A DNA stretch of 39,839 nucleotides from Xanthobacter aminoxidans (lineage in GTDB: Bacteria; Pseudomonadota; Alphaproteobacteria; Rhizobiales; Xanthobacteraceae). The stretch spans positions 1 through 39,839 of the forward strand of contig NZ_JAMJXC010000029.1 of NCBI RefSeq assembly GCF_023571765.1, written 5' to 3'. The notes under the pieces were generated by a model, which was given only the letters and a program-made list of their open reading frames with translations, ran no database searches and was not told where the DNA came from. Below, one piece after another: positions 9,937 through 29,414 of the stretch. Numbering within the stretch: the stretch's first letter is position 1; every line of letters starts with the position of its first letter. Made by a program: the position numbers and the translations under genes.

Positions 9937-10818
9937 TTACTTTGGTCTCCTCGCCGGTCTTTCGCCCATCAGGGCGATGAAGGCGGCGGCGAAGAGGTGA
10001 TCCATGGCCCGGGCCAAATTACCGCCGGTCATGGTGAGGCAGCGGATTATCAATCCGCCGCCATTCGGCAATTCGCTCATGCCGGCGCAGCAACCGAGTG
10101 GCTCCACCTCGGCCGTAAGAGCATGCGGGTCGATCTCGCCGAGGCGTGGGCCGAGCACTAATATACTGCCCATGGCGCGATAGGTCCCCAGAGGCGAACT
10201 GACCCCTGCGAACCCACGGCCGCTCAAGTTGCTTCGCTCCGTCGCTATCAGGCGTCCATCAGCGTCAAGAATGCGCACACATGTCTCAAGCCGGTCGAAC
10301 GGGCAGCCACGTGCTTCTGGGTCGTGTGTGGCGAAGCCGTCGGAAACGATGACGCGAGCGCCGACGGCCACCGTCACGTCCATTGACGAAACGAAGCTCG
10401 CCTCAGGAAAAAGAATGAAGGGGTCGTTGGTGAGGGCGAGGAAGGCGTGTTCGCGGACGGTGACCGTGGTGGTGAGGAGCGCGGGAGCATCGGGGGTGCG
10501 ATGGACAACGGTTGCGGCCTGGCTGGTAAGATGGACGTGGGCGCCACGGCCGGCCTCTATGTCGAGCCGCAAGCGGTCACCTCGGTAGAGCCCGCCGGAG
10601 GCGGACTGGAGATACAATGTGGCGAGTTCCGGCAGCCGCGGGTCGAGTGCGAAGGACCGTGTGATGTGGAAGGGATAAGGCACGTGTTGACGAGCCAACA
10701 CAGTTCGTCCGCCTCCGCGCACGAAAGCGAGGCCCGCTGTCACTTGGCGGCCTGATGTGGGCGAAAGCCGGTCCGGCACGGCCACGCGGAAGGTGGGGTC
10801 CCTCGGCGCGACGTTCAT
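9937..10818 (-). CDS. ureD: urease accessory protein UreD (UreH)
   Basis: A 293-residue protein. UreD is the scaffold that binds the urease apoprotein and recruits UreF and UreG for nickel-site assembly. Family segments seen are [42 protein letters not shown] and [14 protein letters not shown] at 10818 overlaps the ureG stop as ATGA, so the genes are translationally coupled. It is the last gene of the long minus-strand urt-dmf-ure cluster. The IS3 element lies 10 bp after the stop, so anything once downstream is gone. The protein itself appears complete. Confidence 0.92.
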
Positions 10819-11465
10819 CGAAACAGAACCGCCCTGACGATCCGATCGGCGACGGCGTCGATGCCGGCGCTTCGACGCGAATCGGTGATTACAACCGGAC
10901 GGTTCGACCGCACCTTCAGCGCGTCGGCTTCCATCTGCACGAGGTTCACCCCGACATGCGGGGCAAGATCCTGCTTGTTGATCACCAGCAGGTCGCAGCG
11001 CAGCACGCCCGGTCCCTTCTTGCGCGGAATGTCGTCGCCGCCCGCGACGTCGATGACAAAGATCCACCAGTCGACCAGGTCCAGCGAGAAGGTGGAGGCG
11101 AGATTGTCGCCGCCGGATTCGAACAATATGAGCTCGAGGCCGGGGAAGCGCAGTTCCAGATCGTCGCCGGCCGCCATGTTGAGCGTCGGGTCCTCGCGGA
11201 TCACAGTGTGCGGGCAGGCGCCTGCCTCCACCGCCAAAACGCGCAGAGGGTCGATCAGGCCTGAACGGCGCAGCCGCTCGGCATCCTCGCGGGTGACGAG
11301 GTCGTTTGTTACCACGGCCAAGTCGACGCCGCGCGCTTGAAGCACGGGAATCAGCGCCTCGATCAGCGCGGTCTTACCAGAGCCGACCGGCCCGCCAATG
11401 CCCACGCGGGCGGCGATGCTGCGGGGAAATGTCTCGTCGAGGGGCATCGCCATCGGCCCGTTCAT
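10815..11465 (-). CDS. ureG: urease accessory GTPase UreG
   Basis: A 216-residue SIMIBI-class GTPase that delivers nickel to urease. The P-loop GGPVGSGKT is at about 24-32 and the nickel/zinc-binding CPH motif at 84-86 ([11 protein letters not shown]). ESGGDN is at about 116-121 and the guanine-specificity motif NKQD at 163-166 (usually NKTD). The start at 11465 overlaps the ureC stop by ATGA. In-frame ATGs at 11453 and 11447 are alternatives, but the family N-terminus is variable. It sits between ureC and ureD, in the same transcript. Confidence 0.93.
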
Positions 11466-13174
11466 CGCAACACATAACGCTGCGCCAGAGGCAGCGTCGC
11501 CGAGGGCTCGCAGGTCGCCAGCACGCCATCGACGAAGACGTCGAAGGTCTGGGGATCGACGCGGATATCGGGACAGGCCGTGTTCAGCCGCAGGTCCTTC
11601 TTGCGCAGCGTGCGTGTACCGACCGCGGGAAGCAGCGGCTTCGACAGGCCGAGCTCGCCGCCCAGTCCCCGCTTGATGGCGAGCGGATGCACAAAGCAGG
11701 CGGAGAGCTGCGAGGCGGCGCGGCCGAACGCCCCCCATTGCGGGCGCACCAGCAGGGGCTGACAGGTCATCAGCGAGGCGGCGCTGTCGCCCATCGCCCC
11801 CCAGGCGATGAAGCCGCCCTTGACTACCAACTCCGGCTTGATGCCGAAAAAGCCGGGCCGCCAGATGACGATGTCTGCCATCTTGCCGTCCTCTAGCGAG
11901 CCGATGTGCCCGGCGATGCCGAAGGTGAGCGCGGCGTTGATGGTGTATTTGGCTATGTAGCGCTTGATGCGAGCATTGTCGCCCATGCCGTCGACATCCT
12001 CCGGGAGCGGCCCGCGTTGCTCCTTCATCTTGGAGGCCAGCTGCCACGTGCGGCAGATCACTTCATGGATGCGCCCCATACCCTGGCTGTCCGAGCCGAG
12101 CATCGAGATGGCGCCGAGGTCATGCAGCACGTCTTCGGCGGCGATGGTCTGCGGTCGGATGCGGCTCTCGGCGAAAGCTACGTCCTCTGGGATGGCCGGG
12201 TTGAGGTGGTGGCACACCATCGTCATGTCGAGATGTTCGTCGAAAGTGTTGACCGTGTAGGGGTTGGTCGGGTTGGTCGAGGAGGGCAGGCAGTTCTCAA
12301 GGCCGGTGACGCGGATAATGTCCGGCGCGTGGCCGCCGCCGGCGCCCTCGGTGTGGTACATGTGGATGGTGCGTCCACCGACCGCGGCCAGTGTGTCCTC
12401 CAGGAACCCGCTCTCGTTCAATGTATCGGTGTGGATCTGCACCTGGAAGTCGAGCTCGTCGGCGACCCCAAGGCAAGTGTCGATAGCGGCGGGCACCGAG
12501 CCCCAATCCTCGTGTAGTTTCAGGCCGAGGCAGCCGGTCTCCATCTGCTCGACCAGCGAGGCCGGTTTGTGGCTGTTGCCGCGCCCAAGGAAGCCGAAGT
12601 TCATTGGCCATTGCTCGGACGCCTGAAGCATTTTGCCGGCGTTGAACGGGCCGCCGGAATCGATGCCGACGGTAATGGGGCCCAGCGAACCGCCGATCAT
12701 GGTAGTGATGCCGCTGGCAATGGCGTGCTCGACGAGGCCGGCGCTGTCGAAATGCACATGCACGTCGATCGCGCCGGCGGTGGCGATCAGCCCCTCGCAG
12801 TCGCGCACCGTGGTCGCCTGCGAGACGACGAGACGTGGATCGACACCGTCCATCACAGCCTGGTTGCCGGCCTTACCGATCCCGACGATCCTGCCGTCCT
12901 TGATGCCGAGGTCGCCCTTGACGATGCCCAGCATGGCATCGATTACCACGACGTTGCACAACAGCATGTCGAGTGCACCCTGCGTGGAAGTGACGCCGGC
13001 GGCAAGACCGGCGCCGTCGCGCAGCGTCTTGCCGCCGCCATGCAGGCACTCGTCGCCATAGACCGTGTAGTCCTTTTCGATCACGGCGATAAGCGAGGTG
13101 TCGGCCAGACGCACACCGTCGCCTGCGGTCGGACCGTACATGCGGGCATAGTCGCGGCGCTGCATCATCACCAT
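11462..13174 (-). CDS. ureC: urease catalytic subunit alpha UreC
   Basis: A 570-residue nickel amidohydrolase that hydrolyses urea to ammonia and carbamate. Ligands are in place with a +2 offset from the Klebsiella enzyme: H139 and H141 in DVHVHF, the carbamylated K219 in [10 protein letters not shown]248 in [11 protein letters not shown]274 in [11 protein letters not shown], and D362 in GSDSQGMGR. The flap cysteine and histidine are C321/H322 in [19 protein letters not shown]. The segment after HVHF is unusual: the normal CPQQ is replaced by SAGLVEH. The C-terminus ([10 protein letters not shown]) is complete. It starts 2 bp after the ureAB stop and overlaps ureG by ATGA, so it should be functional within the operon. 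Confidence 0.95.
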
Positions 13175-13176
13175 AG

Positions 13177-13872
13177 TCAGGCTCCCTTGAAACCGGCGGC
13201 GCGGGCGCGCTGCAGCGCCTGCGCGCGTGCCTCCTCGCCGTCCGTCGGTCCCCCGCTCAGACTGTTGAAGCCGTCAATCTCGCGGGTACCGCCTACTGCC
13301 ACCAACGTCAGCGTCTTGCCCTGCCCCGGCTCGAAGCGCACGGCAGTGCCGGCGGGGATGTCGAGCCGCATGCCGAACGCTTTGGCACGGTCGAAGTCGA
13401 GCGCCTTGTTGACCTCGAAGAAATGGTAATGCGAGCCGATCTGGATGGCCCGGTCGCCGGTGTTGACTGCGGTGATCTCCAACCGCGCGCGGCCGGTATT
13501 TAGTTCAATTTCGCCCTCCAGCGGCAGCAACTCGCCCGGCTCCAGCCTGTCGGGCGCGGCACCTTCGCGCGGTCGGATCGGCTCATGGATCGTCACCAGC
13601 TTGGTGCCGTCGGGAAACACGCCCTCGACCTGAAGGACATCCAGCAGCGCGGCGACTCCGGGCATGACGTCGTCGGTCGTAAGGATCAAGGAGCCCGCCC
13701 CCATCATCTGCGCCACCGTACGCCCGTCGCGCGCACCCTCCAGTATCTCGTCGGTGATCAGCGCCACCGCCTCTGGATAGTTGAGTTTCAGCCCGCGCGC
13801 CCGGCGCTTGCGTGCCAGCTCGGCGGCGGTGAAGATGGTCAGCCGTTCGAGTTCCGTCGGCGTGAGCAGCAT
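13177..13872 (-). CDS. urease gamma-beta fusion subunit (UreA-UreB)
   Basis: A 231-residue protein with both small urease subunits fused. The gamma part (about 1-100) has [20 protein letters not shown] and [21 protein letters not shown]. The beta part (about 108-231) has [29 protein letters not shown] and [16 protein letters not shown]. The same arrangement is known from Helicobacter UreA and some other bacteria; separate ureA and ureB genes are commoner in proteobacteria. ATG at 13872 has AGGAAAG just upstream and matches the family start. It precedes ureC by 2 bp. Confidence 0.93.
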
Positions 13873-13900
13873 GGCTTCTTTCCTGCGGGTGGGAGCTTCG

Positions 13901-14584
13901 TCAGTTCGAGAACAGGCGAACCTCGGACGTGGCGTGGCGCATGGTGGCAATGTCGAGAAGCGGGCTCATGCTGGCGAAATCGTCTGCAGAGACGGGTGAC
14001 CTTGCGCCGATCTCCTCGATCAGTCCGGCGATTACCGGCAGCGTCGCGGCAAGCGCCCGCTGCGCGTCCACCGCGCCGACGAGGCCGAGTCGCACCGCCG
14101 CGCTCACCATGGTAGACGCGGCACCATAGGCGGAGGCGGCAAGCGCCGAGGTCTCGTCCAGCCCGCAACGGTGCCACAGTGCGCCCTGCATCACCGGCAG
14201 GTGTCCGTGCAGCCGCCGTGCGTCGACCTCCACCTTCAGCGCGCTGGCACCCGTGGTGCCGATCCGCGCATGCGAAGTGAGAAAGGCCAGTCCGTTGCGA
14301 CGGGAGCCGCTGCGCTGCGGCGCGGGCAGTGTCGCCGCCTCCAGCCGGCTGTCGATTCCGACCAGCCCGGCGAGGTCGTCGACGGCGGCGAAGGCAAGGA
14401 GAACGGCAATGGCATCCATGCGGGCCCAGCGATGGGTCAGGGTCGTGGCCAGCACAGCCGCCAAACGGTCGCGGTCGAGGCGCTCGCCCAGCTCCGCCAG
14501 CCCCTCAATGCCGTTCGAGAAAGCGAACGCGCCGTTCGGGAAGGCCGAATCCGACTGCCAGAGCGTTGCTAGTAGCGTTAGCAT
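13901..14584 (-). CDS. ureF: urease accessory protein UreF
   Basis: A 227-residue all-helical UreF. It bridges UreD and UreG and gates GTPase activity during nickel insertion. Family segments are [21 protein letters not shown] at the N-terminus (usually SPxLPVGxFsyShGlE) and the small-residue-rich C-terminal helices ([19 protein letters not shown]). ATG at 14584 overlaps the ureE stop by 7 bp, showing coupling. A 28-bp gap separates it from ureAB. Confidence 0.9.
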
Positions 14585-15045
14585 GGCGCGCTCCCGGCTT
14601 CGGGCGCAGCCACCTCGATCCGGTCATCGAGGCCAAGCGCCGCCAGCCGTGCGAGATAGGCTTCAGCGGGGCCTTCCAGCGCGACGCAGATCGCCGTTGC
14701 CTCGAACCGTACCCGCCAGTGCAGATTGCCGACGTGATAGCCGAGCTCCAGCGCGACTGCCATGTCCCGCACCCCGAGCCGCAACCACCGCTCCGCATCG
14801 ACCCGCACCACGATCGCCCGATGCTGTTCGAACAGCAGCACGGCGCCGTCGAACAGCGTTTCGTCCCGCGGCAGCGCCACCGCGATCTCGGTGCCGCCGC
14901 TGGTCACCGCTCGAAACCGCCGCCGCGCCAGCTCGGCCGCCGCAAGCATCAGCCACTCCACCGCCCCATGATGCTCCAAATCATGCAGCCGCTCAGAGTA
15001 CCCTTCGTCCAGCCGGCTCCCGACAATGCGATCAATCTGCAGCAT
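14578..15045 (-). CDS. ureE: urease accessory nickel metallochaperone UreE
   Basis: A 155-residue protein. The N-terminal domain ends in a strand-rich segment with TEIAVALPRDETLFDGAVL. The C-terminal metal-binding domain has LGYHVGNLHWRVRF; the His in GNLHW is the conserved nickel ligand. There is no His-rich C-terminal tail, so it delivers rather than stores nickel. ATG at 15045 follows a strong AAGGAGGTC site and fits the family start, unlike the longer open frame. It overlaps the upstream unknown gene by 14 bp and ureF by 7 bp. Confidence 0.88.
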   Translation of the reverse strand: MLQIDRIVGSRLDEGYSERLHDLEHHGAVEWLMLAAAELARRRFRAVTSGGTEIAVALPRDETLFDGAVLLFEQHRAIVVRVDAERWLRLGVRDMAVALELGYHVGNLHWRVRFEATAICVALEGPAEAYLARLAALGLDDRIEVAAPEAGSAPC

Positions 15046-15373
15046 GATCGACCTCCTTGCCGGTCCTCGCCGGCGTGCGGATTGGCCTCTCAACCGGGCC
15101 GCGCCGGAACAGGAAAATGCAGCGACCGGTCTCCTCCGCCACCGCAGGTACGTGGAGTTGCTCCGTCAGGTAACGAAACACGATGCGTGCCGCGGCCGGC
15201 GACAGCGTCGGCTTCCACAGCCAGATGTCCCGCTCGGTATCGACCGCGTGCCGCACGAACAAGGCGCGCGCGGGATCGTCGGCGCACCCGACGCACCAAT
15301 CGGCGGGCCGCCCACCGAATTCCTTGATGTAGCTCAGGAACTCGAATTTGACTTGTTGCGGACTGAACACCAT
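15032..15373 (-). CDS. small unknown protein encoded in the urease operon
   Basis: A 113-residue protein starting MVFSPQQVKFEFLSYIKEFG, with a WCVGC pair (Cys-x-x-Cys) near residue 28 and a basic C-terminus (CIFLFRRGPVERPIRT). I do not recognise a family. ATG at 15373 is 5 bp after the Sel1 gene stop, and the end overlaps ureE by 14 bp, so it is embedded in the transcript. The CxxC could bind a metal or form a disulfide; that is speculation. It could assist urease maturation or the neighbouring Rieske-like protein. Confidence 0.65.
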   Translation of the reverse strand: MVFSPQQVKFEFLSYIKEFGGRPADWCVGCADDPARALFVRHAVDTERDIWLWKPTLSPAAARIVFRYLTEQLHVPAVAEETGRCIFLFRRGPVERPIRTPARTGKEVDHAAD

Positions 15374-15378
15374 CTGCG

Positions 15379-16077
15379 TCACCCGGGAAGCGGGTTGAGA
15401 CGCGCATGGCGGGAAACTTCGGCGGTGCGCCCCCGCCAACGCGCGACCGAGGTGCTTCCCGCCTGCTTCTCGTCCGACGACATTTGCGCCACGATCGCTT
15501 CAAGCGCGGTCAGCGCGGCCCCGATGCCGTGCTGGGCGGCAAGCGACAGCCAGGTGAATGCCTCTACGCGATCCTTTGGCACGCCGAGGCCGTTCACATA
15601 CATGAAGCCCAGCCGCGCCTGCGACGGATAGTGCCCGCGCTCGGCCGCGGAGCGATACCAGCGCGCGGCGGCTTCATGGTCGGAGCGCCCTCCCTCGCCC
15701 TTCGAGAGCAGCGTCGCCAGATTGTATTGAGCGAAGACGTCACCGCGCTGTGCCGCCTTTTCCAGCCAGGCGACGCCGGCGGGAATGTCGCGGGGCGTGC
15801 CGTGTCCCATTGCGAGCATGGCTCCGACATTGGTCTGCGCGAGCAGGATGTCAGCCTGCGCGCCTTCGAGATAGAGCGCGAAGGCGCGCATCAGTGAGGC
15901 TTCAACGCCTTGGCCATTGGCGTACATCGCGCCCAGCCACGTCGTTGCCTCCAGATCGCCTTCGCCGGCCCGGAGTGAAAACAGACGGAACGCCTCGTCG
16001 TAGTCGCCGCACATGTAGGCGGCGATGGCGCCCCCCAGCTCCGCGTCGTGCTTGGTGGTGAGATCCGCAGACAGCAT
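15379..16077 (-). CDS. Sel1-repeat (TPR-like) protein
   Basis: A 232-residue protein made of Sel1-like repeats of about 36 residues. Examples are ATTWLGAMYANGQGVEASLM, TNVGAMLAMGHGTPRDI, YNLATLLSKGEGG and ARLGFMYVNGLGVPKDRVEAF. Such solenoids are protein-protein scaffolds. ATG at 16077 is 4 bp after the Rieske-like stop. I see no signal peptide, so it is probably cytoplasmic. Its position between the Rieske-like gene and the urease genes suggests an assembly or bridging role for an enzyme of this cluster (inference). Confidence 0.85.
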   Translation of the reverse strand: MLSADLTTKHDAELGGAIAAYMCGDYDEAFRLFSLRAGEGDLEATTWLGAMYANGQGVEASLMRAFALYLEGAQADILLAQTNVGAMLAMGHGTPRDIPAGVAWLEKAAQRGDVFAQYNLATLLSKGEGGRSDHEAAARWYRSAAERGHYPSQARLGFMYVNGLGVPKDRVEAFTWLSLAAQHGIGAALTALEAIVAQMSSDEKQAGSTSVARWRGRTAEVSRHARLNPLPG

Positions 16078-16081
16078 GGGC

Positions 16082-17173
16082 TCAGCTCCTCGGGTTCTGG
16101 TAAAGTGGTTGCGGGAAGGCATCGCGAGGCATGCGAGCGAGGTGGGCGGCGAGGGCCACCTGCATCCAGGCGCCCGGCCCATCGCTCTGCGTCGGCAGTG
16201 CGACGCCGATCGTCGCCGGGCGGTGCTGGGTTCCCCAGCGTGCGAGGTCCGCATGCACCGCTTCCGCGCGCTCGGCACGCCGCCGGATTTCCTCGCGCCA
16301 GAACGGCAGCGCACCGCATGGGTCGGCGCCATAGGTCGACAACCGGCACTGGGTCTGGCCCATTGAGGTTGGCTGCAAGATCAGGACGACAGTGCTGTCT
16401 TGCGTGCCGATCAGCACGAGGTTCGGGAACAACCAAGCGGTGCGCGCGACCGTACCGTCGGACAAGTTGGTCGTGGCGGACATCCACAGATCGCGTTCGG
16501 TGTTCACCGGCACGCCGGCGGTCAGCGACTGGCCCATGAGCTTCCAGTTCGCTGCGTATTCGAGCCAGATCTCGTCAGAGCGGCGGGGCTTGTGAGCGCC
16601 GAAGAACCGGCCCGTCTGGTTCAGGGCTGCGAGTTCCCCGTCGGGCCATGCGGGGGCGAGATCCAAATTTACAAAGATCAGCGGGCCCCAGCTGCGGACA
16701 TTGGCAGTCAGCAGACGTTCCGGACGCAGGCCCAGATATTGGTGCATCTGCGGCGTGCCGTCGCCGAGTTCGCCGGCGGGGATGGCTCCGCGGTCACGAC
16801 TGTAGCCGCAGGAGGTGAAGGAGCATTTGGTCTTCGCGCCGGTCTGGCACTGGAGCGGTACCGTTCGGCAACCGCCGTGCTGTGCCTTGTTGAAACGCGC
16901 GACGATGCCGCCATCCGCGCGCTGGACATGGATGCCGTGCGTGCCAACCGTGAAAGGAAGAAGGTCGCCCTTTTTGGGAATGGCCTCATGGGAGCCGATG
17001 CAGACCCAGTCGCGCGTCCAGATCGCCTCATCCTCAAGTTGGCTGAACCGCCGCGAGCGAAAAGCGAGGGGCGGAAGCACGCGCGGAGCCTGGCCGAGCG
17101 CGTCAGCATAAAACGAGGCGTCCACGAGGTTGCTGCCCTCATCCCAGTAACCGAGATCGCGTCTGTGGGTCAT
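16082..17173 (-). CDS. degenerate Rieske-type oxygenase alpha-subunit homologue
   Basis: A 363-residue protein with the overall layout of Rieske non-heme iron oxygenase large subunits: DEAIWTRDWVCIGS near 48-61, then a Rieske-like region, then a catalytic-domain start at ANWKLMGQS. The ligands are broken. In the first box (normally CxH) residue A97 replaces Cys while H99 remains. In the second (normally CxxH) C122 remains but S125 replaces His. The Asp/His/His iron site that should follow NWKL is not visible. It is therefore unlikely to be a working oxygenase. ATG at 17173 follows AGGAG. A strong hairpin separates it from dmfA2, and the Sel1 gene follows by 4 bp. A structural or regulatory role next to the DMFase-like enzyme is possible. 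Confidence 0.75.
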   Translation of the reverse strand: MTHRRDLGYWDEGSNLVDASFYADALGQAPRVLPPLAFRSRRFSQLEDEAIWTRDWVCIGSHEAIPKKGDLLPFTVGTHGIHVQRADGGIVARFNKAQHGGCRTVPLQCQTGAKTKCSFTSCGYSRDRGAIPAGELGDGTPQMHQYLGLRPERLLTANVRSWGPLIFVNLDLAPAWPDGELAALNQTGRFFGAHKPRRSDEIWLEYAANWKLMGQSLTAGVPVNTERDLWMSATTNLSDGTVARTAWLFPNLVLIGTQDSTVVLILQPTSMGQTQCRLSTYGADPCGALPFWREEIRRRAERAEAVHADLARWGTQHRPATIGVALPTQSDGPGAWMQVALAAHLARMPRDAFPQPLYQNPRS

Positions 17174-17194
17174 GTCCGGCTCCTGGCGGGAAGG

Positions 17195-17225
17195 ACCGGC
17201 ATCCGCGCGGCGCGCGGATGCCGGT
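17195..17225 (-). promoter_or_regulatory. very strong intercistronic hairpin between dmfA2 and the Rieske-like gene
   Basis: ACCGGCATCCGCGC (17195-17208) is followed by GGC and the exact reverse complement (17212-17225). This makes a perfect 14-bp, GC-rich stem with a 3-base loop, between the dmfA2 stop (17243) and the next start (17173). There is no U-tract on the minus-strand side, so it is not a classical terminator. It may attenuate downstream expression or stabilise the 3' end of the urt-dmf message. Confidence 0.8.
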
Positions 17226-17242
17226 TGTTCCGTTCGACAGAC

Positions 17243-20252: not shown

Positions 20253-20336
20253 CACAGATCGTCATGACGGCTGACGCAGGACCCTTGAATTCGACGCGTT
20301 AGGTCGACAAGCCCTTAGTTTAGAATTTGACTCAAT

Positions 20337-20349: not shown

Positions 20350-20370
20350 CAATAACATTTGAAGCGACGC

Positions 20371-21851: not shown

Positions 21852-22948
21852 TCGGCTGGCAGTGGCCTGCCGCCGTCCGGCGCAGGCGAGGAGGTCGGAT
21901 CCGGGCGCGCAAGTAGGCCGAGTGCCACCTCAAGAAGGCTGGCGAGGCCGTTCGGCAGGAACCGGACCACGACGATGAAGAAGCCACCCAGGATCAGTAG
22001 CCAGGTCGCGAGGAAGGTGTCACCGAGATAGCTCTGGGCCCCCTGGATGATTAAGGCACCGAGGATCGAGCCGAGCAGCGAGTGGCGGCCGCCGATGGCT
22101 GCCCAGATGACGATCGAGAGGCTGAAGCCGACATCCATCTGGGCCGGCGAGACATACTGCACCAGCATCACCCAGCAACAGCCCGCGACCGCGGCGATGA
22201 GGCCGGAGATCGTGTAGATCACCGTCTCGTAGCCGGCGACGCTATAGCCGAGGAAGCGCACGCGCTCGCTGTCGTCGCGGATCGCCTGCGTGACGAGGCC
22301 GAACGAACTCTGGGTGATGAGCTTGGCCAGGAACGTCGCCCCTGTCAGAAAGAACAACACGACCCAGTAGGCGGTGGGGCTGTAAGGGTCGACCTCCACG
22401 CCGGCAAACTGGAAGGCGGAGGGCGGCGTCAGGCCATTGACGCCACCGGTATAGGCCTGCCGGTCGAGAATGATGGTGTAGAACGCCGAAAGCATGGCGA
22501 GCGTCATGATGGCGAAGAACGGTCCGGACACGCGCGCGCGGAACATGATGCCGCCAAATGCGGCGCAGAACAGTGTCGGCACGGTCACCGCCAGGATGAG
22601 CCCGAGCAGCGTGCTTTGGAAGGGTTGCCAGAGCAGCGGCAGGTAATCGAGGCTGTTGTTGAGCATGAACGGCGGAATCGGATTGGATTCGGTCTGACTC
22701 TGCATCTGCATGGTCATTGCCATGCCGTAGGCGCCGAGGCCGAAGGCGATGCCCTGGCCGAGGTTGAGGATGCCCCCGAAGCCCCAGCAGAGGCTGATCG
22801 AGAGGGCCAGCATGCCGTAGACGCAGTAGGTGGCGAACTGGTTCAGCAGGAAGCTGTCGCCCACCATGTTCGGGATGATCGCGAGCGCCGCGAAGAACGC
22901 GACATACACGACCCACTGCGCGATCTTGTTGTGATAGAGGTTGCCCAT
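21848..22948 (-). CDS. urtC: urea/short-chain amide ABC transporter permease UrtC
   Basis: A 366-residue LivM-type permease with about nine to ten membrane segments. UrtC signatures are CWGFGGILNLGQGIAFGLGAY and the loop FLGYSVAGYETVIYTISG, preceded by QAIRDDSERVRF (the EAA-like ATPase contact). A 45-bp gap follows urtB, and the stop overlaps urtD. It forms the channel together with UrtB. Confidence 0.92.
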   Translation of the reverse strand: MGNLYHNKIAQWVVYVAFFAALAIIPNMVGDSFLLNQFATYCVYGMLALSISLCWGFGGILNLGQGIAFGLGAYGMAMTMQMQSQTESNPIPPFMLNNSLDYLPLLWQPFQSTLLGLILAVTVPTLFCAAFGGIMFRARVSGPFFAIMTLAMLSAFYTIILDRQAYTGGVNGLTPPSAFQFAGVEVDPYSPTAYWVVLFFLTGATFLAKLITQSSFGLVTQAIRDDSERVRFLGYSVAGYETVIYTISGLIAAVAGCCWVMLVQYVSPAQMDVGFSLSIVIWAAIGGRHSLLGSILGALIIQGAQSYLGDTFLATWLLILGGFFIVVVRFLPNGLASLLEVALGLLARPDPTSSPAPDGGRPLPAE

Positions 22949-22993
22949 GATCTCAGACCCGTGCTGGCGCGGTGTTGCGGACGACGGTGGCGG

Positions 22994-23869
22994 TCATCGC
23001 CGAGCCCCCGACTGCGCAAACAGGCCCTGTGGACGGAAGCGCAGGAAGGCGACGATCAGCACGAAAATGATGAAGCGGGCGAGGGTGTCGTTGGTGAAGA
23101 AGGCGAAGACCGACTGCATTTCGCCGGTCACGCCGCTCGCCACCACGCTTCCCGCCAGCGAGCCGCCGCCCACGACCACCATGAGGAAGGCCTGCACGAC
23201 GTAGCTTGCGCCCATCGTCGGCAGCACGATCGCCAGCACTCCGAAGAGGGCCCCGGCAACGCCGGCCAGCCCGGCGCCCAGGGCGAAGGTCAGCATGTAG
23301 ATGCGGCCGGAATTGATGCCGAACGCCGCAGCCATTTCCTTGTTCTGCATGACCGCGCGCACCTGCACGCCGAAGCGCGTCTTGTAGAACAGCAGCCACA
23401 GCGCGAGGACCAGCAGCACAGTGACCAGCAGGACGACGATGCGGAACGCGGAAACCGACACCGAGCCCAGCATCACGTTGCTCTGGAAAATTTCCGGCAC
23501 CGCGAGATATTTCGGGTCACTGCCGAAGATCAGCCGAACGCCCTGCATCAGCACCAGCGAGACGCCATAGGTCGCCAGCAGCGTGTCCAGCGGGCGACTG
23601 TAGAGATAGCGGATCAGGCCACGCTCCAGCGCCAGCCCCACCAGGGCGACGACGACAAAAGAGGCTGGCAGGCACAGCAGGTAGGGCAGTCCCAGGTAGA
23701 ACTGCAGCATGTAGGAACTGTAGGCACCAAGCATGATCAGTTCGCCATGCGCCATGTTTATGACACCGGCCGTACCGTAAATGATCGTCAGGCCGAGCGC
23801 GGCGATCAACCAGATGCTGGCGATGCTCACGCCGAGAATGAGTGCGTTCAGAAGCGAACCGAGATCCAT
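22994..23869 (-). CDS. urtB: urea/short-chain amide ABC transporter permease UrtB
   Basis: A 291-residue LivH-type permease. The N-terminus LNALILGVSIASIWLIAALGLTIIYG is followed by GVINMAHGELIMLGAY, the family hallmark. The ATPase-contact loop VQVRAVMQNKEMAAAFGIN is present. ATG at 23869 (MDLGSLL) is chosen; a longer frame to 23953 lacks family similarity. The 113-bp space after urtA is larger than elsewhere in the operon, as is usual after a highly expressed binding-protein gene. Confidence 0.92.
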   Translation of the reverse strand: MDLGSLLNALILGVSIASIWLIAALGLTIIYGTAGVINMAHGELIMLGAYSSYMLQFYLGLPYLLCLPASFVVVALVGLALERGLIRYLYSRPLDTLLATYGVSLVLMQGVRLIFGSDPKYLAVPEIFQSNVMLGSVSVSAFRIVVLLVTVLLVLALWLLFYKTRFGVQVRAVMQNKEMAAAFGINSGRIYMLTFALGAGLAGVAGALFGVLAIVLPTMGASYVVQAFLMVVVGGGSLAGSVVASGVTGEMQSVFAFFTNDTLARFIIFVLIVAFLRFRPQGLFAQSGARR

Positions 23870-23982
23870 TGAACCGTATCCGTTGCGCCCTTGCGGGCCA
23901 TCCGCGCCGCAGAGGTGGCGCACCCAGTCATGAAACGCCGGCAGGGGCGCCACGGCGCGCGACGCTGCAGGGCCTGTTCATT

Positions 23983-25290
23983 TCAGATGACGCTCTTGCG
24001 GATCTTGCCGTCCGGCGCCTTCAGGCCGTCCTTGGTGCACAAGCCGACGTCCGGGTAGATTGAGTACGGATCAGGAGCGACGTGCTTCTCGGCGGCCTTC
24101 ACGATCTTGAAGGTACCATCGGCCTGGCACTGGCCGATCTTCGGCTTTAGCCAGGTGTTGAAGTTGTTTTCGTCGATCCAGATCAGGCCTTCTGGCGAGA
24201 CGTCGTCCTCGACTCGGATGCCACCGGAATGGTCACGAATGATGCGCGGGGTGACGTTCTCGAAGCCCACGGCGGCGGCGGCCTTCTCGAAGCCGGCCTT
24301 GAACACGTAGGCCGACGTGTATGTCTCCTCCATGTTGTAGTGGGTGGTGCCGTTTTTGCCGTACTTGCTCTTTAGGAAGCTCTCGACGAACTTCTGGTTG
24401 GTCGGGGTGTCGAGCGACTGGAAATACGGCGCGGACAGGAAATGGCCGGCGCCGAATTCCGCTCCCATGGCCCGCGTCTCGATCTCGCCGGTGGTCAGGG
24501 AGGCGATCGGCATCTTGTCGACCTTGAAGCCCTCCTGCTTGAACTGCTTGTGGAAGGCGATGTCGGACGCGCCGACGACCGTCGAGAAGATGAAGTCGGG
24601 GTTGGCGTCGCGGATCTTGTTGAGGAGCGGCCCGAACTCGGAGCTGCTGAGCGGGATGTATTCCTCGCCGAGCAACTCGCCGCCAGCCTTCTCGAGCCAC
24701 ACCTTAGCGTTCTTGTTCGATTCCTTCGGCCACACATAGTTCGAGCCGACGAAGAACACGCGCTTGCCGAACTGCTGCACCATGAAGGGGATGAGGTCCT
24801 GCGAATGCTGATTCGCGAGCGGCCCGGTGCAGATCGTGTTCTGCGTGCACTCGGCCCCTTCATAGCAGGTTGGATAGTACAGAAGATGATCGCGCTGCAT
24901 CACCGTCGGCAAGATCGCCTTTCGGCTCGCCGAGGTGTAGCAGCCGAACAGCGCGATGACCTTGTCGCGCAGGATGAGTTCCTTGGCCTTTTCCGAATAG
25001 ACGGCGAAGTCCGATTTCGCGTCGACGATCACCGGCTCGATCGGCAGGCCGGCCACGCCGCCCGCCTTGTTGATCTCGTCGATAGCGTACTGCATGACGA
25101 GCGCGGAGTCCTCCTCAGGAACGGCGAGCGAACCGGTGAGAGAGAACAACAGGCCGACCTTGATCGGCTCGCCCTTCTTCAGGGTCGCTCCCCAGGCCTC
25201 GCTGGACTCGGGAATCCAGAGTTGGGGCAGACTAACAGCTGCGGCAGCGGCGGCGGTCGACTTAAGTATGTTACGGCGTGTGATCTTCAT
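23983..25290 (-). CDS. urtA: Tat-exported urea/short-chain amide binding protein (UrtA/FmdD type)
   Basis: A 435-residue periplasmic binding protein of the Peripla_BP_5/6 (type 1) fold. The N-terminus ITRRNILKSTAAAAAAV is a twin-arginine signal. The mature part has IKVGLLFSLTGSLAVPE, DEINKAGGVAGLPIEP, LFGCYTSASRKAILPTV, YYPTCYEGAECTQN and FVGSNYVWPKESN, all characteristic of UrtA and of FmdD from Methylophilus, which serves urea and short-chain amides. Ligand choice cannot be settled between them. It heads the minus-strand cluster; a candidate promoter and operator lie at 25360-25405. It probably supplies the substrate for the DMFase-like enzyme and urease. Confidence 0.92.
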   Translation of the reverse strand: MKITRRNILKSTAAAAAAVSLPQLWIPESSEAWGATLKKGEPIKVGLLFSLTGSLAVPEEDSALVMQYAIDEINKAGGVAGLPIEPVIVDAKSDFAVYSEKAKELILRDKVIALFGCYTSASRKAILPTVMQRDHLLYYPTCYEGAECTQNTICTGPLANQHSQDLIPFMVQQFGKRVFFVGSNYVWPKESNKNAKVWLEKAGGELLGEEYIPLSSSEFGPLLNKIRDANPDFIFSTVVGASDIAFHKQFKQEGFKVDKMPIASLTTGEIETRAMGAEFGAGHFLSAPYFQSLDTPTNQKFVESFLKSKYGKNGTTHYNMEETYTSAYVFKAGFEKAAAAVGFENVTPRIIRDHSGGIRVEDDVSPEGLIWIDENNFNTWLKPKIGQCQADGTFKIVKAAEKHVAPDPYSIYPDVGLCTKDGLKAPDGKIRKSVI

Positions 25291-25359: not shown

Positions 25360-25376
25360 CTAGACCATATATCTAG
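25360..25376 (-). promoter_or_regulatory. operator-like palindrome just downstream of the putative urtA -10 box
   Basis: CTAGACCATATATCTAG has perfect 5-bp arms (CTAGA/TCTAG) with a 7-base spacer. It lies immediately downstream of the proposed -10 at 25377-25382, where it would cover the transcription start. It contains two copies of the CTAGA motif seen elsewhere in the control regions. Confidence 0.55.
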
Positions 25377-25405
25377 ACGATAGGTTTGGCTCGCGATGGC
25401 GTCAA
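25377..25405 (-). promoter_or_regulatory. urtA: candidate sigma70-type promoter for urtABCDE
   Basis: On the minus strand, -35 TTGACG (25405-25400) is separated by 17 bp from -10 TATCGT (25382-25377). The start would fall near 25370, giving a leader of about 80 bases before the urtA ATG at 25290. The -35 matches 5 of 6 and the -10 matches 4 of 6 consensus bases. Confidence 0.45.
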
Positions 25406-25844: not shown

Positions 25845-26570
25845 ATGAAGATCCTCATCGCAGATGACCATTGGGTGGTCCGTCAATCGCTAAAGCAGGT
25901 CATGCGGCGCCTGCGTCAGAAGCTCGAAATCTTCGAGGCAGAGACCTTCGATGAGGCAGCAGTCCTGCTCGTCGAGCATCCGGACATCGACCTGGTGCTC
26001 ATCGATCTGGTCATGCCCGGCTTCAATGCCTTTGACGGCCTGCACAAGCTGCGAACGAATTTTCCCGACGTGCCCGTGGTGGTAATCTCGGTTCACGAGG
26101 ATGTCGACCACGTACTGCGCTCCGTCGAGCACGGCGTCATCGGCTACGTCCCGAAATCCGCTGGCGGCCCCGAGATAGAGCGCGCTCTCGAGCGGGTGCT
26201 TGGTGGAGAGGTGAGCTTTCCACGGAGGATCATCGAACGCTCGGCGGGGGCGAACACGGCGAAGCCCGCCGCCGATCCGGCCCCTGCGACCGTCGCGGCG
26301 TCGGCGCCGGCTTTTCCCCCCGGTGCATCCCCAGCCACCACGACCGCCGAGCCGCGCGACGAACTGGACCTGCTCACGCCGCGTGAGCGCGACGTCCTCG
26401 GCCTGCTTGGCCGCGGCTATTCCGTGAAGCGCATTGCCGAGGAGTTCGAGCTCAGCAGCCAGACGGTCCGGGTGCATCTGGGAAATGCGATGCGTAAGCT
26501 CAACATCCGCGATAGGGCCGCAGCGGTGCACTACGCCATCGGCCGCTTCGGCGCGGGGGAGCACGTCTGA
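25845..26570 (+). CDS. NarL/FixJ-type response regulator
   Basis: A 241-residue regulator. The receiver domain (1-120) has the acidic pair D7/D8 in ILIADDHW, the phospho-acceptor D54 in LVLIDLVMPG, Ser101-type switch region VVVISVHED, and K129 in YVPKSA. A Pro/Ala-rich linker (about 142-170) leads to a LuxR-type HTH (LTPRERDVLGLLGRGYSVKR to NIRDRAAAVHYA). It lies 1 bp upstream of the histidine kinase start and is divergent from urtA. It most likely activates or represses the urt-dmf-ure cluster in response to the kinase (inference from context). Confidence 0.92.
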   Translation: MKILIADDHWVVRQSLKQVMRRLRQKLEIFEAETFDEAAVLLVEHPDIDLVLIDLVMPGFNAFDGLHKLRTNFPDVPVVVISVHEDVDHVLRSVEHGVIGYVPKSAGGPEIERALERVLGGEVSFPRRIIERSAGANTAKPAADPAPATVAASAPAFPPGASPATTTAEPRDELDLLTPRERDVLGLLGRGYSVKRIAEEFELSSQTVRVHLGNAMRKLNIRDRAAAVHYAIGRFGAGEHV

Positions 26571-26571
26571 C

Positions 26572-28143
26572 GTGAGCGATCCGCCTGTCCCTGCCGGGTC
26601 GGTCCACCTCAGTGAGATCTTCGCCGGACTGGATATACTCCCGTTCGGCGTGCTGATCTGGTCCCGTGAACGGCAGCTGGTCTATGCGAATGATCGCTTC
26701 CGGCGTAGCTGGGATCTTCCGGTGCGAATCGGCATCACATTCGAGGCGTTCATTGCCACCATGGCGCATTCGCGTGAATGCGTGCTGCCGACGGATGCCG
26801 ACACATGGGAGCGCGAGCAGATCGCGGCCTTCGGCGCGGAAAGCAGCGCGGATTACCTGTTCGCCGCCGGCACGGTGCTGAATGTGACTCAGGCGCCGAC
26901 CGCGTCTGGCGGCATGACGATGTCGTTTTCGGACGTGACCGCGGTGAAGAGCAACGAGCGGGCGCTCCAGCTAGCGAAGGAGACCGCGGAGGCGACCGAC
27001 GAGGCCAAGTCGCGGTTTCTGCGGGCCGCAAACCATGACCTGCGCCAGCCGCTCGCCTCCCTGAAGATCCTTATCTACAATTGCATTCGCGAGGAGGATC
27101 CCGAGCATCGTTCCGACATGCTGCATGCCATGGAGATCGCCACCTCCATCATGGAGGACCTGCTGGGCGCGCTTCTTCAGATAGGCCAGCTCGATGCCGG
27201 CCGCGTCGAGCCTCGCATCACCTCGTTCCAGCTGTCACAGTTGTTCGAGCGGCTCGACGTCCAGTTCCGCCATCAGGCGCGCGAGAAGGGGCTTCGCCTG
27301 GTCTTTGTGCCGCCGCACGGCACGATTGCAACCGACCGCGCCCTGCTCGAACGCATCCTGAGCAATTTCGTCGCCAATGCCGTTCGTTTCACCGAGGTCG
27401 GCGGCATCGTCGTCGGCTGCCGGCGCGAGGCGAACGGCCTACGCATCGAGGTGGTGGATACGGGACGCGGCATCCGCCCGGAGGACCGCGAACGCGTATT
27501 CGACGAGTTCTTCCGCTCGGAAGAACAGCGCGGGCAGAAGAGCGGCCTCGGCCTCGGCCTCAATATCGTCAAGCGTCTGGCCGACTTGCTTGAGCTTCCC
27601 GTCCGCCTTCGTTCGGAAGTTGGCCGCGGGTCGATCTTCTCGGTCACGGTCCCGCTGGGAAACATCTGGCACAGCGTCGCGAACGAGGTGGAGATTAGCG
27701 AAACCGTCGCCGGCGAGTTCGTCGGCACGTCAGTCATACTGGTCGAGGACGACGATATCCTGCGCGAGACCATGACCCAGCTGCTACGGCGTTGGGGCAT
27801 CGACGTGCATGCGGCGGCGGACGAGGCCGAGGCCATCCGGCTGATCGAAAGCGGGGTGTCACCGCGATTGATCGTGGCCGATTACAACCTCAAGGCCCGC
27901 ATGGGTGTGGACGTGGTGGAGCGGCTGCGCCGGGCCGTCGGCGCCGACGTGTCGGCGATGATCGTCACGGCCGATGCCGAGCCCCGCGTCATCGAGAGCA
28001 TCCGCAGCGCTGGGTTGCCAGTGCTGGTGAAGCCGGTCAGCCCGCCGCGGCTGCGCGTGCTGATGCACAATCTGCTGTTCGAGCCTTCGCTGGTGACGGT
28101 CGGTGAGCCGACATCGGCTCCGCCTCGGAGACACATGCCGTGA
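26572..28143 (+). CDS. soluble hybrid histidine kinase with PAS and receiver domains
   Basis: A 523-residue kinase without membrane segments or signal peptide. A PAS-like domain (about 15-130; GVLIWSRERQLVYANDRF) is followed by a short coiled linker. The H-box FLRAANHDLRQPLASLKI has the phospho-accepting H155; the N-box is SNFVANAVRFT (264-274), the G1 box DTGRGI and the G2 box GLGLGLNIVK. The C-terminal receiver (from about 386) has D437 in LIVADYNLK and K487 in LVKPV. GTG at 26572 has a GGGGGAG site and starts 1 bp after the response-regulator stop. It overlaps the next gene by GTGA. As a cytosolic kinase it probably gets its input from the co-encoded binding-protein homologue. Confidence 0.9.
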   Translation: MSDPPVPAGSVHLSEIFAGLDILPFGVLIWSRERQLVYANDRFRRSWDLPVRIGITFEAFIATMAHSRECVLPTDADTWEREQIAAFGAESSADYLFAAGTVLNVTQAPTASGGMTMSFSDVTAVKSNERALQLAKETAEATDEAKSRFLRAANHDLRQPLASLKILIYNCIREEDPEHRSDMLHAMEIATSIMEDLLGALLQIGQLDAGRVEPRITSFQLSQLFERLDVQFRHQAREKGLRLVFVPPHGTIATDRALLERILSNFVANAVRFTEVGGIVVGCRREANGLRIEVVDTGRGIRPEDRERVFDEFFRSEEQRGQKSGLGLGLNIVKRLADLLELPVRLRSEVGRGSIFSVTVPLGNIWHSVANEVEISETVAGEFVGTSVILVEDDDILRETMTQLLRRWGIDVHAAADEAEAIRLIESGVSPRLIVADYNLKARMGVDVVERLRRAVGADVSAMIVTADAEPRVIESIRSAGLPVLVKPVSPPRLRVLMHNLLFEPSLVTVGEPTSAPPRRHMP

Positions 28144-29414
28144 ACACGCTCTCTGAACCCGTTCCCATTGGCAGTATGGTGCCGCTTACCGGCCCTTCGG
28201 CGGCAGACGGCGCCGAGTTCCGCAAGGGGATGATCCTCGCTGTGGAGGAGCTCAATGCCCGCGGCGGGCTGCTCGGTCGGCCGATAAAGCCGATCTTCGC
28301 CGATACCTGCCGCCAGACGGCGGAAGAAGTCGTCGGTGCGGCTCGGTGGCTGATCGAGAAGCACAAGGTCCACGCCATCGTTAACGGCTACAATATTGGC
28401 CCGCAGAACTCGGAATACGAGCCGATTGCGGATGCGGGAATCATCTATGTCCACGCAAATACGCTGTTGCAGCACCACGACACTGTCATGAGCGACCCTG
28501 ATCGCTATTTCGGCTGCTTTATGGCGGATCCGGCGGACTACTGGTACGGGCCCGGGTTTATCAAGTTCATATCGTGGTTGCGCGATTCCGGGCAATGGAC
28601 GCCGCACTCCAATCGCATCGCCATCATCTCCGGCTCGAAGCCCTATAGTATCGTCATCGCCAATGCGATGGCGAAGGCGGCGGCCGATTTCGGCTGGCAG
28701 GTGGCCTTCGGGCCGAAGATCGTGCAGACTCCGACCCACCACTGGCGGGATGTGCTGGAGGAAGTGCGTTGCACTAATCCCGCCGTGCTCGCGAACACGC
28801 ATTTCTATGCGGTCGACCTCGCGCATTTCCAACGGCAGTTTCGGGCCAACCCCATGGATTGCATAGTCTATCTGCAATACGGTGCAATGCACCGCACCTT
28901 CAACGACATCGCCCAAGAGGCCTGCGACGGGATTATCGTCTCCTCGGTGATCGGCCTTCTGCGCGATGAAATGGGCAAGCGCTTCGAGACCCGCTACAAT
29001 GCGCGCTTTGGCGAGGGCTCGACCGCGACGATCGGCTGCCAGTCCTACAGCAACATGCACCACTATGCGGTAGCAGCCGCTATGGCGGGCGGTTCCGGCC
29101 CGCCCGGCGATTTCGAGCAGAACCGCAAGGTTGCCTTCGCTCTCAAAGGCATGATCTACCGTAGCGTCCACGGCACGATCCGCTACCATCCCGACTGGCA
29201 GGCGGTGGTTCCCTACCCCGTGGTGACGCACGATCCCTCTCTCGGAATGCCCCACATTTTCTACCAGATCCAGGACTACCGGAAATCGTTGTCTATGATC
29301 GCGCCGGAGCCCTACAATACTGAACGTTTCATCTATCCGCCCTGGATGAGCGGCCGGACGACAGCAGTGAAGCCGGCCACTTCCCAAAACCCGCGTGGCC
29401 TCATAGGTTTTTGA
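28140..29414 (+). CDS. cytoplasmic type-1 periplasmic-binding-protein homologue, putative amide/urea sensor
   Basis: A 424-residue protein of the Peripla_BP_5/6 (AmiC/NhhC/UrtA) fold. The first strand and helix read PIGSMVPLTGPSAADGAEFRKG, then AVEELNARGGLLGRPIKPIF. There is no signal peptide: the domain begins within 10 residues of GTG at 28140. Like AmiC of Pseudomonas aeruginosa it should therefore bind a small amide in the cytoplasm and talk to a regulator. It is coupled to the kinase gene by GTGA. I infer a three-part sensor (binding protein, soluble hybrid kinase, NarL regulator) for the substrate of the adjacent cluster. A metabolic role is not excluded. Confidence 0.85.
   Translation: MNTLSEPVPIGSMVPLTGPSAADGAEFRKGMILAVEELNARGGLLGRPIKPIFADTCRQTAEEVVGAARWLIEKHKVHAIVNGYNIGPQNSEYEPIADAGIIYVHANTLLQHHDTVMSDPDRYFGCFMADPADYWYGPGFIKFISWLRDSGQWTPHSNRIAIISGSKPYSIVIANAMAKAAADFGWQVAFGPKIVQTPTHHWRDVLEEVRCTNPAVLANTHFYAVDLAHFQRQFRANPMDCIVYLQYGAMHRTFNDIAQEACDGIIVSSVIGLLRDEMGKRFETRYNARFGEGSTATIGCQSYSNMHHYAVAAAMAGGSGPPGDFEQNRKVAFALKGMIYRSVHGTIRYHPDWQAVVPYPVVTHDPSLGMPHIFYQIQDYRKSLSMIAPEPYNTERFIYPPWMSGRTTAVKPATSQNPRGLIGF

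Follow-up and report, generated by a model that had tools for sequence, protein, structure and literature searches.

Dimethylformamidases (DMFases) are usually treated as enzymes for a man-made solvent. What might be the substrate of a DMFase-like enzyme whose genes lie between those of an Urt-type importer and those of a urease? The question is raised by a stretch of 39,839 nucleotides from Xanthobacter aminoxidans (the window), in which positions 9937..29414 hold 16 minus-strand genes facing three plus-strand sensor genes. This layout had been claimed in an earlier note on the same DNA and is confirmed by ORFs, family scans and homology matches. UreF, UreG, UrtB and UrtC were assigned by their match (28-55%) to the canonical urt/urease locus of the same genome. 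Neither Rfam at gathering threshold nor a tRNA scan returned any RNA feature. The features are as follows:

9937..10818, minus strand: ureD (PF01774, E 6e-36; start taken from the ORF)
10815..11465, minus strand: ureG (ORF; 55% to canonical-locus ureG; orthologue in L032 at 79%)
11462..13174, minus strand: ureC of a divergent urease clade, urease-2 (TIGR01792, 809 bits)
13177..13872, minus strand: ureAB fusion (PRK13192, 360 bits)
13901..14584, minus strand: ureF (ORF; 28% to canonical-locus ureF; tblastn orthologues)
14578..15045, minus strand: ureE (PF02814, E 1e-10)
15032..15373, minus strand: 113-aa small protein, fifth core gene (in 68/69 loci)
15379..16077, minus strand: Sel1-repeat protein, core gene (PF08238, E 2e-33; 69/69 loci)
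16082..17173, minus strand: core gene for a protein of Rieske-oxygenase fold whose metal ligands are rewired
17243..19630, minus strand: dmfA2-like large subunit, core gene (PF20254, E 2e-85)
19770..20210, minus strand: dmfA1-like small subunit, core gene (invariant H19, C22, C37, C76)
20335..20342, no strand: candidate operator palindrome ATCTAGAT, upstream of dmfA1
20390..20397, no strand: candidate operator palindrome ATCTAGAT, in front of dmfA1 and overlapping the urtE end
20392..21096, minus strand: urtE-like ATPase (TIGR03410, 286.4 bits, cut-off 285.8)
21093..21851, minus strand: urtD-like ATPase (TIGR03411, 302.2 bits, cut-off 304.1)
21848..22948, minus strand: urtC-like permease (ORF; 32% to canonical-locus urtC; orthologues in most loci)
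22994..23869, minus strand: urtB-like permease (ORF; 41% to canonical-locus urtB; orthologues in most loci)
23983..25290, minus strand: UrtA-like binding protein with AmiC-like motifs (TIGR03407, 335 bits, cut-off 492.75)
25371..25378, no strand: candidate operator palindrome, upstream of urtA
25845..26570, plus strand: LuxR-type response regulator (PF00072 and PF00196)
26572..28143, plus strand: PAS-histidine kinase-receiver hybrid (PF12860, PF00512, PF02518, PF00072)
28140..29414, plus strand: binding-protein-fold sensor (PF13458; 381 bits to 3H5L)

A five-gene core, dmfA1-dmfA2-Rieske-like-Sel1-113-aa protein, was found in 66 of 69 fetched loci, the other three being cut by contig ends. The same order thus recurs in other genomes, which argues that the arrangement is not due to chance; the case that the earlier note had named as refuting, an order found nowhere but in the window, does not hold. 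Hosts of the core are Alpha-, Beta- and Gammaproteobacteria, and the island is carried by soil methylotrophs, Bradyrhizobium, Rhodopseudomonas and aquatic MAGs. A single search, with the Rieske-like protein as query, yielded the 69 loci, so that its presence there is by construction; its gene occurs together with dmfA2 in 69/69 of them. In the reverse direction, the Rieske-like gene was also present in 15 out of 15 additional genomes that have a close dmfA2. urtE is missing in 11 of the 69 loci, and for eight of these, of Methyloversatilis type, and for L039, a contig end alone is no explanation. Urease genes were detected in the fetched flank of 25/69 loci, at identity thresholds that, as for all locus gene, MgsC, FmdA and divergent-urease counts given here, were our choice. 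The earlier note had proposed conversion of an N-acylated or N-substituted urea, or of a formamide, into urea or ammonia. N-substituted ureas and formamides are compatible with the data, and urea is not required as an obligatory intermediate, since urease lies outside the invariant core. Its broader claim, that amide and urea functions form one system under a dedicated sensor, is borne out and extends to other genomes, and the evidence points to an inducible island. Our literature search found no described pathway with this combination, in line with that note, bar a remark on the dmfA pair of Paracoccus plasmid pAMI5; searches for methylurea or N-methylformamide together with the cluster genes returned nothing beyond fungal, review and off-topic material. 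The accessible part of PMC10308929 mentions a rhodopsin gene with a dimethylformamidase gene in its vicinity.

DmfA2 aligns with 6LVB, a DMFase large subunit (E 8e-152), and is 37% identical to that of the pAMI2 DMFase. The Fe ligands Y399, Y440 and E521 and the catalytic H519 are retained in all 84 orthologues, a set that, like the 86 Rieske-like sequences below, contains near-duplicates. In the same 84/84 sequences, N547 is replaced by Asp. Asn547 is present in 14 of 15 remoter members, including the pAMI2 DMFase; the one with Asp is L018. Because N547 has been called essential in the known DMFase, its replacement suggests that the substrate may not be a formamide, and an Asn-to-Asp swap at a catalytic-site residue is a puzzle in itself. 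According to the available part of PMC7686228, the catalytic efficiency of the Paracoccus DMFase is 6167 for N-methylformamide, 257 for DMF and 4 for formamide, and the enzyme is inactive on urea and acetamide. DmfA1 matches the alpha subunit of the pAMI2 DMFase at 34% over 74 aa, with a different N-terminal part, and gave no Pfam match and no PDB match by phmmer. Its H19, C22, C37 and C76 are invariant in 84/84 sequences and were not seen in the pAMI2 subunit.

The Rieske-like protein has the fold of a Rieske oxygenase alpha subunit. Its CxH...CxxH ligand set is broken in the alignment, the first Cys being A97 and the second His T120, while H99 and C117 are kept. C102, C109, C117 and C122, together with H79, H82 and H99, are invariant in 86/86 sequences, so that the description of this protein as degenerate holds for the two lost cluster ligands, and rewired is the better word for the whole. 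A Rieske fold carrying an invariant non-Rieske Cys/His set is a second puzzle. No His outside positions 79, 82 and 99 is conserved at 90% or more among the 86 sequences, as a His-His-Asp/Glu catalytic iron site would need, and the model has low confidence over residues ~100-150. The 113-aa protein is modelled at pLDDT 86, with no Pfam match and, in a fold search of the PDB, no hit reaching E 0.001.

The urease of the cluster is a second copy, as a canonical urt and urease locus lies elsewhere in the genome (G000:C37), and its UreC is 58% identical to the canonical one. Two positions that we take to be canonical urea contacts are altered: Ala366 is Gly, and the Ala170 loop is three residues short. 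The metal-ligand motifs (nickel ligands and carbamylated Lys) are present in all 32 urease-2 clade members checked, as is CHH at Cys322/His323 in the urease-2 sequences inspected. Ureases are generally considered highly specific, which makes a clade with changed urea contacts a third puzzle. Of the 16 cluster genomes, 14 carry divergent ureC (8/281 among the others), and in 12 it lies no farther than 25 kb from dmfA2; the two cluster genomes without it are G124 and G233. In five fetched loci, urease-2 stands beside AmiE and urt or AmiC/AmiR, which replace the DMFase module, and this pairing suggests that it may serve general amide metabolism.

The UrtA of the cluster scores below the TIGR03407 cut-off (335 against 492.75 bits), whereas the canonical UrtA of the genome reaches 568. 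Aligned with UrtA and AmiC, it shares GCYxS, YPT, FSTVVG and PIASLTT with AmiC, motifs that presumably have a functional role. On the opposite strand, the PAS-kinase hybrid has no strong membrane segment (top 19-residue hydropathy 1.64), and the binding-protein-fold sensor shows no sign of a signal peptide (N-terminal hydropathy 0.64). The palindrome RTCTAGAY, discovered and counted in the same 18 regulator gaps, occurs at the urtA and dmfA1 promoters with three of its 13 genome copies; a fourth copy in the window, at 5408, is away from both. In L109 (genome G050), which is outside the discovery set, two copies precede dmfA1 and one precedes urtA. The palindrome is absent within 300 bp of dmfA1 in 5/20 regulator-positive loci and within 200 bp of urtA in 2/12 loci. 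The narrower ARTCTAGAY matched the genome five times against 11 for the reversed control, and is thus rare, yet without specificity on its own. A single sigma-54-like pattern matched none of the 18 regulator gaps. The LuxR-type regulator may bind RTCTAGAY, with the kinase and the sensor as the presumed signalling route.

MgsA, MgsB and MgsC, names that we take to denote N-methylglutamate synthase (the NCBIfam labels are only generic), are all encoded in the source genome, elsewhere than the cluster. At 74% identity or more, MgsC was detected in 16/16 cluster genomes against 83/281 others (Fisher 1e-8; background in the order, 99/297), with shared ancestry among the cluster genomes, 8/16 of which are from one family. 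In the subset lacking the methylotrophy marker fae, MgsC was found in 5/5 genomes with the cluster and 43/232 without it, and 21 out of 22 genomes carrying the divergent urease have it. Mgs and type III glutamine-synthetase-like genes neighbour the cluster in L105, L106 and L107/L108, and one or the other is present in 10/69 loci; in only three of the 16 genomes do Mgs genes lie close to it, those of the others being elsewhere or past the fetched flank. Amine genes are indeed absent from the window, as had been stated, and are found beside the cluster in several relatives and elsewhere in the same genome. Methylamine assimilation, which the earlier proposal did not include, is the downstream step best associated with the cluster. 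The parts that relatives substitute are amide parts (AmiS/UreI and AmiC/AmiR), FmdA or AmiE neighbours occur in 9/69 loci and a PF09694 outer-membrane-type protein in 10/69. FmdA was detected in 10/16 cluster genomes against 32/281 others, and in the source genome it adjoins AmiS/UreI. A homologue of the PF11927 oxidative N-demethylase is present in 11/16 cluster genomes against 79/281 others and lacking in five of the 16.

We infer that the island may serve the inducible scavenging of small N-methylated amides with release of methylamine, N-methylformamide being the favoured substrate, and our confidence in this reading is evenly balanced. The cytoplasmic binding-protein sensor would detect the amide, and the signal would pass via the kinase to the LuxR-type regulator and on to its presumed binding sites, the RTCTAGAY copies at the promoters of urtA and dmfA1. 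The AmiC-like UrtA and its ABC importer would bring the amide in, and the DmfA1A2-like Fe(III) hydrolase would split it into methylamine and a carboxylic acid, which would be formate in the case of N-methylformamide, perhaps with the Rieske-like, Sel1 and 113-aa proteins as partners or maturation factors. Methylamine could then pass to the N-methylglutamate synthase, whose genes lie outside the cluster, and the divergent urease might handle a urea-type co-substrate brought in by the same importer. If so, the DMFase family would have a natural function in the cycling of C1 compounds and nitrogen.

Several observations weigh against scavenging of N-methylated amides: Asp547 in all orthologues, the small number of genomes with Mgs genes close to the cluster and the shared ancestry of the cluster genomes; in addition, FmdA and AmiE neighbours fit unmethylated amides equally well, and N-methylformamide alone leaves the recurrent divergent urease unexplained. 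Alternatively, both the urease and the DMFase-like enzyme might act on N-methylated ureas, N-methylurea for example yielding methylamine, ammonia and CO2, with the ureido NH2 donating a hydrogen bond to Asp547. The frequency of divergent ureC in cluster genomes and its proximity to dmfA2, the altered Ala366 and Ala170 loop with metal ligands kept, the presence of MgsC in nearly all genomes with urease-2 and the canonical urt and urease already in the genome are in favour of this alternative. We nevertheless consider it rather unlikely, as G124 and G233 do without urease-2, five loci pair it with AmiE in place of the DMFase module and the known DMFase leaves urea unhydrolysed. A composite version, in which an N547D DMFase, a Rieske-fold third subunit with a new Cys/His metal site and a urease pocket remodelled for N-methylated urea act under one sensor and operator and pass methylamine to N-methylglutamate, is unlikely. 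The amide neighbours (FmdA, AmiE and PF09694) and the AmiC-like UrtA would also suit plain nitrogen scavenging from formamide, acetamide and urea, with the methylamine genes reflecting only methylotroph hosts; the Methylophilus fmd cluster, which joins a formamidase, a porin and an amide/urea importer according to the available text of PMC10781810, is a precedent. This is quite unlikely given that the MgsC association persists without fae and that formamide is a poor substrate for the known DMFase; moreover, FmdA beside AmiS/UreI and the canonical urease suggest that plain formamide and urea are already covered.

The remaining alternatives concern the chemistry of the enzyme. A true DMFase for N,N-dimethylformamide would agree with the 37% identity to the pAMI2 large subunit, the intact iron site and the enrichment of PF11927 homologues. 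It is highly improbable in view of N547D, the different small subunit, the five genomes lacking PF11927 and the history of Paracoccus aminophilus, in which loss of pAMI2, with the real DMFase, abolished growth on DMF despite the pAMI5 locus, whose dmfA genes had no link to DMF in the accessible part of a 2015 report (PMC4543880). With this orthologue reported as unlinked to DMF use, DMF as main substrate was held at low probability. A reaction beyond simple hydrolysis would be expected if a cluster bound by the four invariant Cys of the Rieske-like protein supplied electrons to, or loaded iron into, the DmfA1A2-like complex. The seven invariant Cys/His, the invariant H19, C22, C37 and C76 of DmfA1 and the constant pairing of the Rieske-like gene with dmfA2 are consistent with such gating, but the five-gene core has no reductase or ferredoxin gene, the relevant Rieske-like segment is modelled at low confidence and those relatives of the enzyme that have been characterised act by hydrolysis, so that we give this idea very little credence.

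Several known systems resemble the island in part. The DMFases of Paracoccus sp. DMF (6LVB) and P. aminophilus pAMI2 share full-length large-subunit homology with Y399, Y440, E521 and H519, whereas the cluster has Asp547, a small-subunit N-terminal part with invariant His/Cys, three additional core proteins, an importer and another regulator. The pAMI5 locus has dmfA1 (63%), dmfA2 (70%), the Rieske-like protein (40%) and the 113-aa protein (37%), faced by a binding protein, a histidine kinase and a response regulator. In contrast to the window, AmiS/UreI replaces urt, the sensor is UrtA-like (49% to the window UrtA) and does not resemble that of the window, and no Sel1, urt or urease is annotated in the 32-kb stretch; the accessible part of PMC4543880 mentions only the dmfA pair of this island. 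In Methylophilus methylotrophus, fmdCABDEF likewise combines an amidase, a porin, a regulator and an amide/urea ABC importer and is induced by formamide and urea, but its enzyme is the formamidase FmdA rather than a DMFase-like one, and the available text of PMC10781810 mentions no Rieske-like, Sel1 or urease component. AmiC/AmiR-AmiE operons and an amiE-fmdAB-urtABCDE cluster also join a binding-protein sensor or an Urt-type importer to an amidase, one of them with a NorQ/NorD-like pair as well; as far as the accessible part of PMC13209695 goes, the enzyme is a nitrilase-type AmiE or FmdA and there is no DMFase-like module. The canonical urease/UrtABCDE locus of the same genome (G000:C37) shares gene content and metal ligands with the cluster, which differs from it in a UreC at 58% identity with A366G and the A170-loop deletion and in a UrtA under the equivalog cut-off.

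The gene list and coordinates proposed in an earlier note for the cluster at 9937..29414 were confirmed by ORF calling and family scans of the window, which forms contig C25 of a 5.82-Mb genome. The cluster comprises:

9937..25290, minus strand: urtA-E, dmfA1, dmfA2, the Rieske-like gene, Sel1, a gene for a 113-aa unknown protein, and ureE, F, AB, C, G and D
25845..29414, plus strand: genes for a LuxR-type response regulator, a PAS-kinase-receiver hybrid and a binding-protein-fold protein

Insertion-sequence-like genes bracket this island (8734-9893 and 29475-30315, also 645-2084 and 31831-32916). Only 43 bp separate the end of an IS3-type transposase gene from ureD, 22-bp inverted repeats that start 60 bp past the sensor gene surround transposase-like ORFs, and ISL3 and IS110 transposases lie farther outward; the island may have been recently moved or trimmed. 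An unrelated 2-hydroxycarboxylate transporter, an aconitase-family gene and a LysR regulator occupy 35108-39644.

Scanning genome contigs for matches to the Rieske-like protein yielded 69 loci, 66 of which contain the complete five-gene core clustered on a single strand; the other three (L047, L066 and L070) are truncated by contig ends. The order dmfA1-dmfA2-Rieske-Sel1-unknown is found in 51 loci, and in 15 the last two genes are swapped. urtE is present in 58 of the 69 loci, immediately ahead of dmfA1 in 49, and 25 have urease genes within the flank that was fetched: 22 show ureC, AB or E, and to these are added L040 and L041 (ureG, ureD) and L058 (ureC end, ureG, ureD). Hosts include Ancylobacter, Methylopila, Hansschlegelia, Hyphomicrobium, Methylobacterium, Methylocella, Methyloversatilis, Bradyrhizobium, Rhodopseudomonas, Stutzerimonas and aquatic MAGs. 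In an order-wide sample of 297 genomes, 16 encode a dmfA2 of at least 76% identity, the next-best matches reaching at most 47%. These 16 cluster genomes carry nine family labels, eight belonging to one family, and the 15 other than the window's own all have the Rieske-like gene.

DmfA2 aligns over its full length with the solved dimethylformamidase (DMFase) 6LVB, and more weakly with the N-acetyl-beta-phenylalanine acylase 8HUY. The iron-binding or catalysis-essential residues Y399, Y440, E521 and H519, as given in an excerpt of PMC7686228, are all retained in 84/84 orthologues. N547, labelled essential in a figure legend of that excerpt, is Asp in all 84. Among 15 members farther away in sequence, 14 have Asn, including the DMFase of plasmid pAMI2, and L018 is the exception. 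DmfA1 resembles the pAMI2 small subunit in its second half only, and its H19, C22, C37 and C76 are invariant (84/84).

The predicted structure of the Rieske-like protein (pLDDT 89) has a complete Rieske-oxygenase alpha fold, nearest to biphenyl dioxygenase, stachydrine demethylase and CntA. Alignment shows two of the four cluster ligands replaced (first Cys by Ala97, second His by Thr120), leaving His99 and Cys117 (n=86), and no conserved His for the catalytic iron site was found in the 86 sequences. Cys102, Cys109, Cys122, His79 and His82 are likewise invariant (86/86). Because of these changed ligands, the absent catalytic His and the invariant Cys/His set, the protein is unlikely to act as an oxygenase, yet probably still has a function. 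Most simply, it would have a new metal site, in exactly the region where model pLDDT falls to 60-77.

At 335 bits, the cluster UrtA-like protein falls short of the 493-bit UrtA cut-off; the canonical UrtA encoded near the canonical urease of the same genome reaches 568 bits. The cluster protein matches AmiC, not UrtA, at GCYxS, YPT, FSTVVG and PIASLTT, which we take to line the AmiC pocket. Related loci have different amide components: AmiC and the ANTAR regulator AmiR in eight, and AmiS/UreI in the Paracoccus aminophilus pAMI5 locus. The binding-protein-fold sensor has no signal peptide apparent from hydropathy. UrtA-like sensors are paired with a different kinase in three loci, and the kinase of L061 has a strong membrane segment. 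Since genes homologous to that of the cytoplasmic sensor lie opposite or beside other, more distant DMFase-like genes (L145:7954-19540 and L019), this sensor type may accompany DMFases in general. In 10/69 loci, including L035:12348-13160, the core is followed by a gene for a Gcw_chp family protein (PF09694, from a scan of the L038 copy), through which the amide may perhaps cross the outer membrane. On another contig of the window's genome (L112:7254-9237, G000:C4), a gene for the formamidase FmdA adjoins an AmiS/UreI gene.

A candidate operator, RTCTAGAY, accompanies the response regulator. The 18 gaps between regulator and urtA/dmfA1 (11.3 kb) hold 36 copies of TCTAGA. This density of 31.7 per 10 kb compares with 0.19 in the 49 loci whose fetched stretch lacks the regulator. 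Among the 68 sites of 20 regulator-positive loci, 52 sit upstream of urtA or dmfA1. A site lies within 300 bp of dmfA1 in 15/20 regulator-positive versus 2/47 negative loci, and within 200 bp of urtA in 10/12 versus 1/35. The window's genome has only 13 RTCTAGAY palindromes (114 for the reversed control pattern), of which three are at the urtA/dmfA1 promoters and a fourth is at another place in the window.

A canonical urt-urease locus is also present in this genome (L121, G000:C37:455000-474900), which makes the copy in the window a divergent paralogue; the two UreC proteins share 58% identity. Among matches at E 1e-205 or better in the 297 genomes, UreC falls into two groups (at least 77% and at most 59%), the close group being present in 14/16 cluster genomes versus 8/281 others (1e-16). 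Of the 16 cluster genomes, 12 have close ureC no more than 25 kb from dmfA2, two have it on another contig and two lack it. Metal-ligand motifs are retained in 32/32 close-group sequences checked. Nevertheless, all 34 sequences long enough for both positions (the window, 19 loci and 14 further genomes) have Gly for Ala366 and an Ala170 loop three residues shorter; both are presumably urea-contacting alanines. In five fetched loci (L134, L135, L139, L140 and L146), AmiE is encoded next to the divergent urease, with urt genes in four and AmiR in three. Four of these genomes lack close dmfA2, and G017 (L146) has one on another contig. The divergent urease, found in AmiE loci with urt or AmiC/AmiR, is therefore a companion of amide-cleaving enzymes.

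The strongest genomic companion is methylamine assimilation. MgsC (query from L084, at least 74% identity) occurs in 16/16 cluster genomes versus 83/281 others (Fisher 1e-8, uncorrected for genome relatedness), in 5/5 versus 43/232 of those without fae (likewise uncorrected), and in 21 of the 22 genomes with close-group UreC. Other markers fit less well (fae 11/16, PF11927 11/16, FmdA 10/16). The whole mgs and cluster arrangement is visible in three genomes: the genes of L106 run XRE-mgsABC-GS type III-purU-ure-urtABCDE-dmfA1-dmfA2-Rieske with a single orientation, and in L105 and L107/L108 mgsC lies within 18 kb of dmfA2, with adjoining mgsA called, plus mgsB in L108. The window's genome has mgsABC and a GS-like gene on contig C23, and C76 carries another mgs set.

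The simplest account of these genes would be that a small N-methyl amide is taken up and hydrolysed by an inducible system. The favoured candidate is N-methylformamide, being the substrate of highest catalytic efficiency for the characterised DMFase (PMC7686228, in part) and one whose amine product matches the methylamine genes. Given the N547D replacement, the urease clade and the loci with AmiE instead, the substrate may also be a methylurea or a plain amide.

This gene combination was not found in the open-access literature searched. According to part of PMC4543880, DMF use is not linked to the homologous dmfA1-dmfA2 pair of pAMI5. Operons of the form amiE-fmdAB-urtABCDE and amiE-amiC-amiR-NorQ/D are reported in an excerpt of PMC13209695, with uptake of formamide as the suggested role. 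A MoxR/GvpN-like AAA ATPase (weak NCBIfam match) followed by a partner of about 760 aa shares a stretch with sensor and urease genes in L142:10883-14001, L143, L147 and L135. Possibly a metal-site activator, this pair resembles the NorQ/NorD-like pair of the amidase operon in that excerpt.
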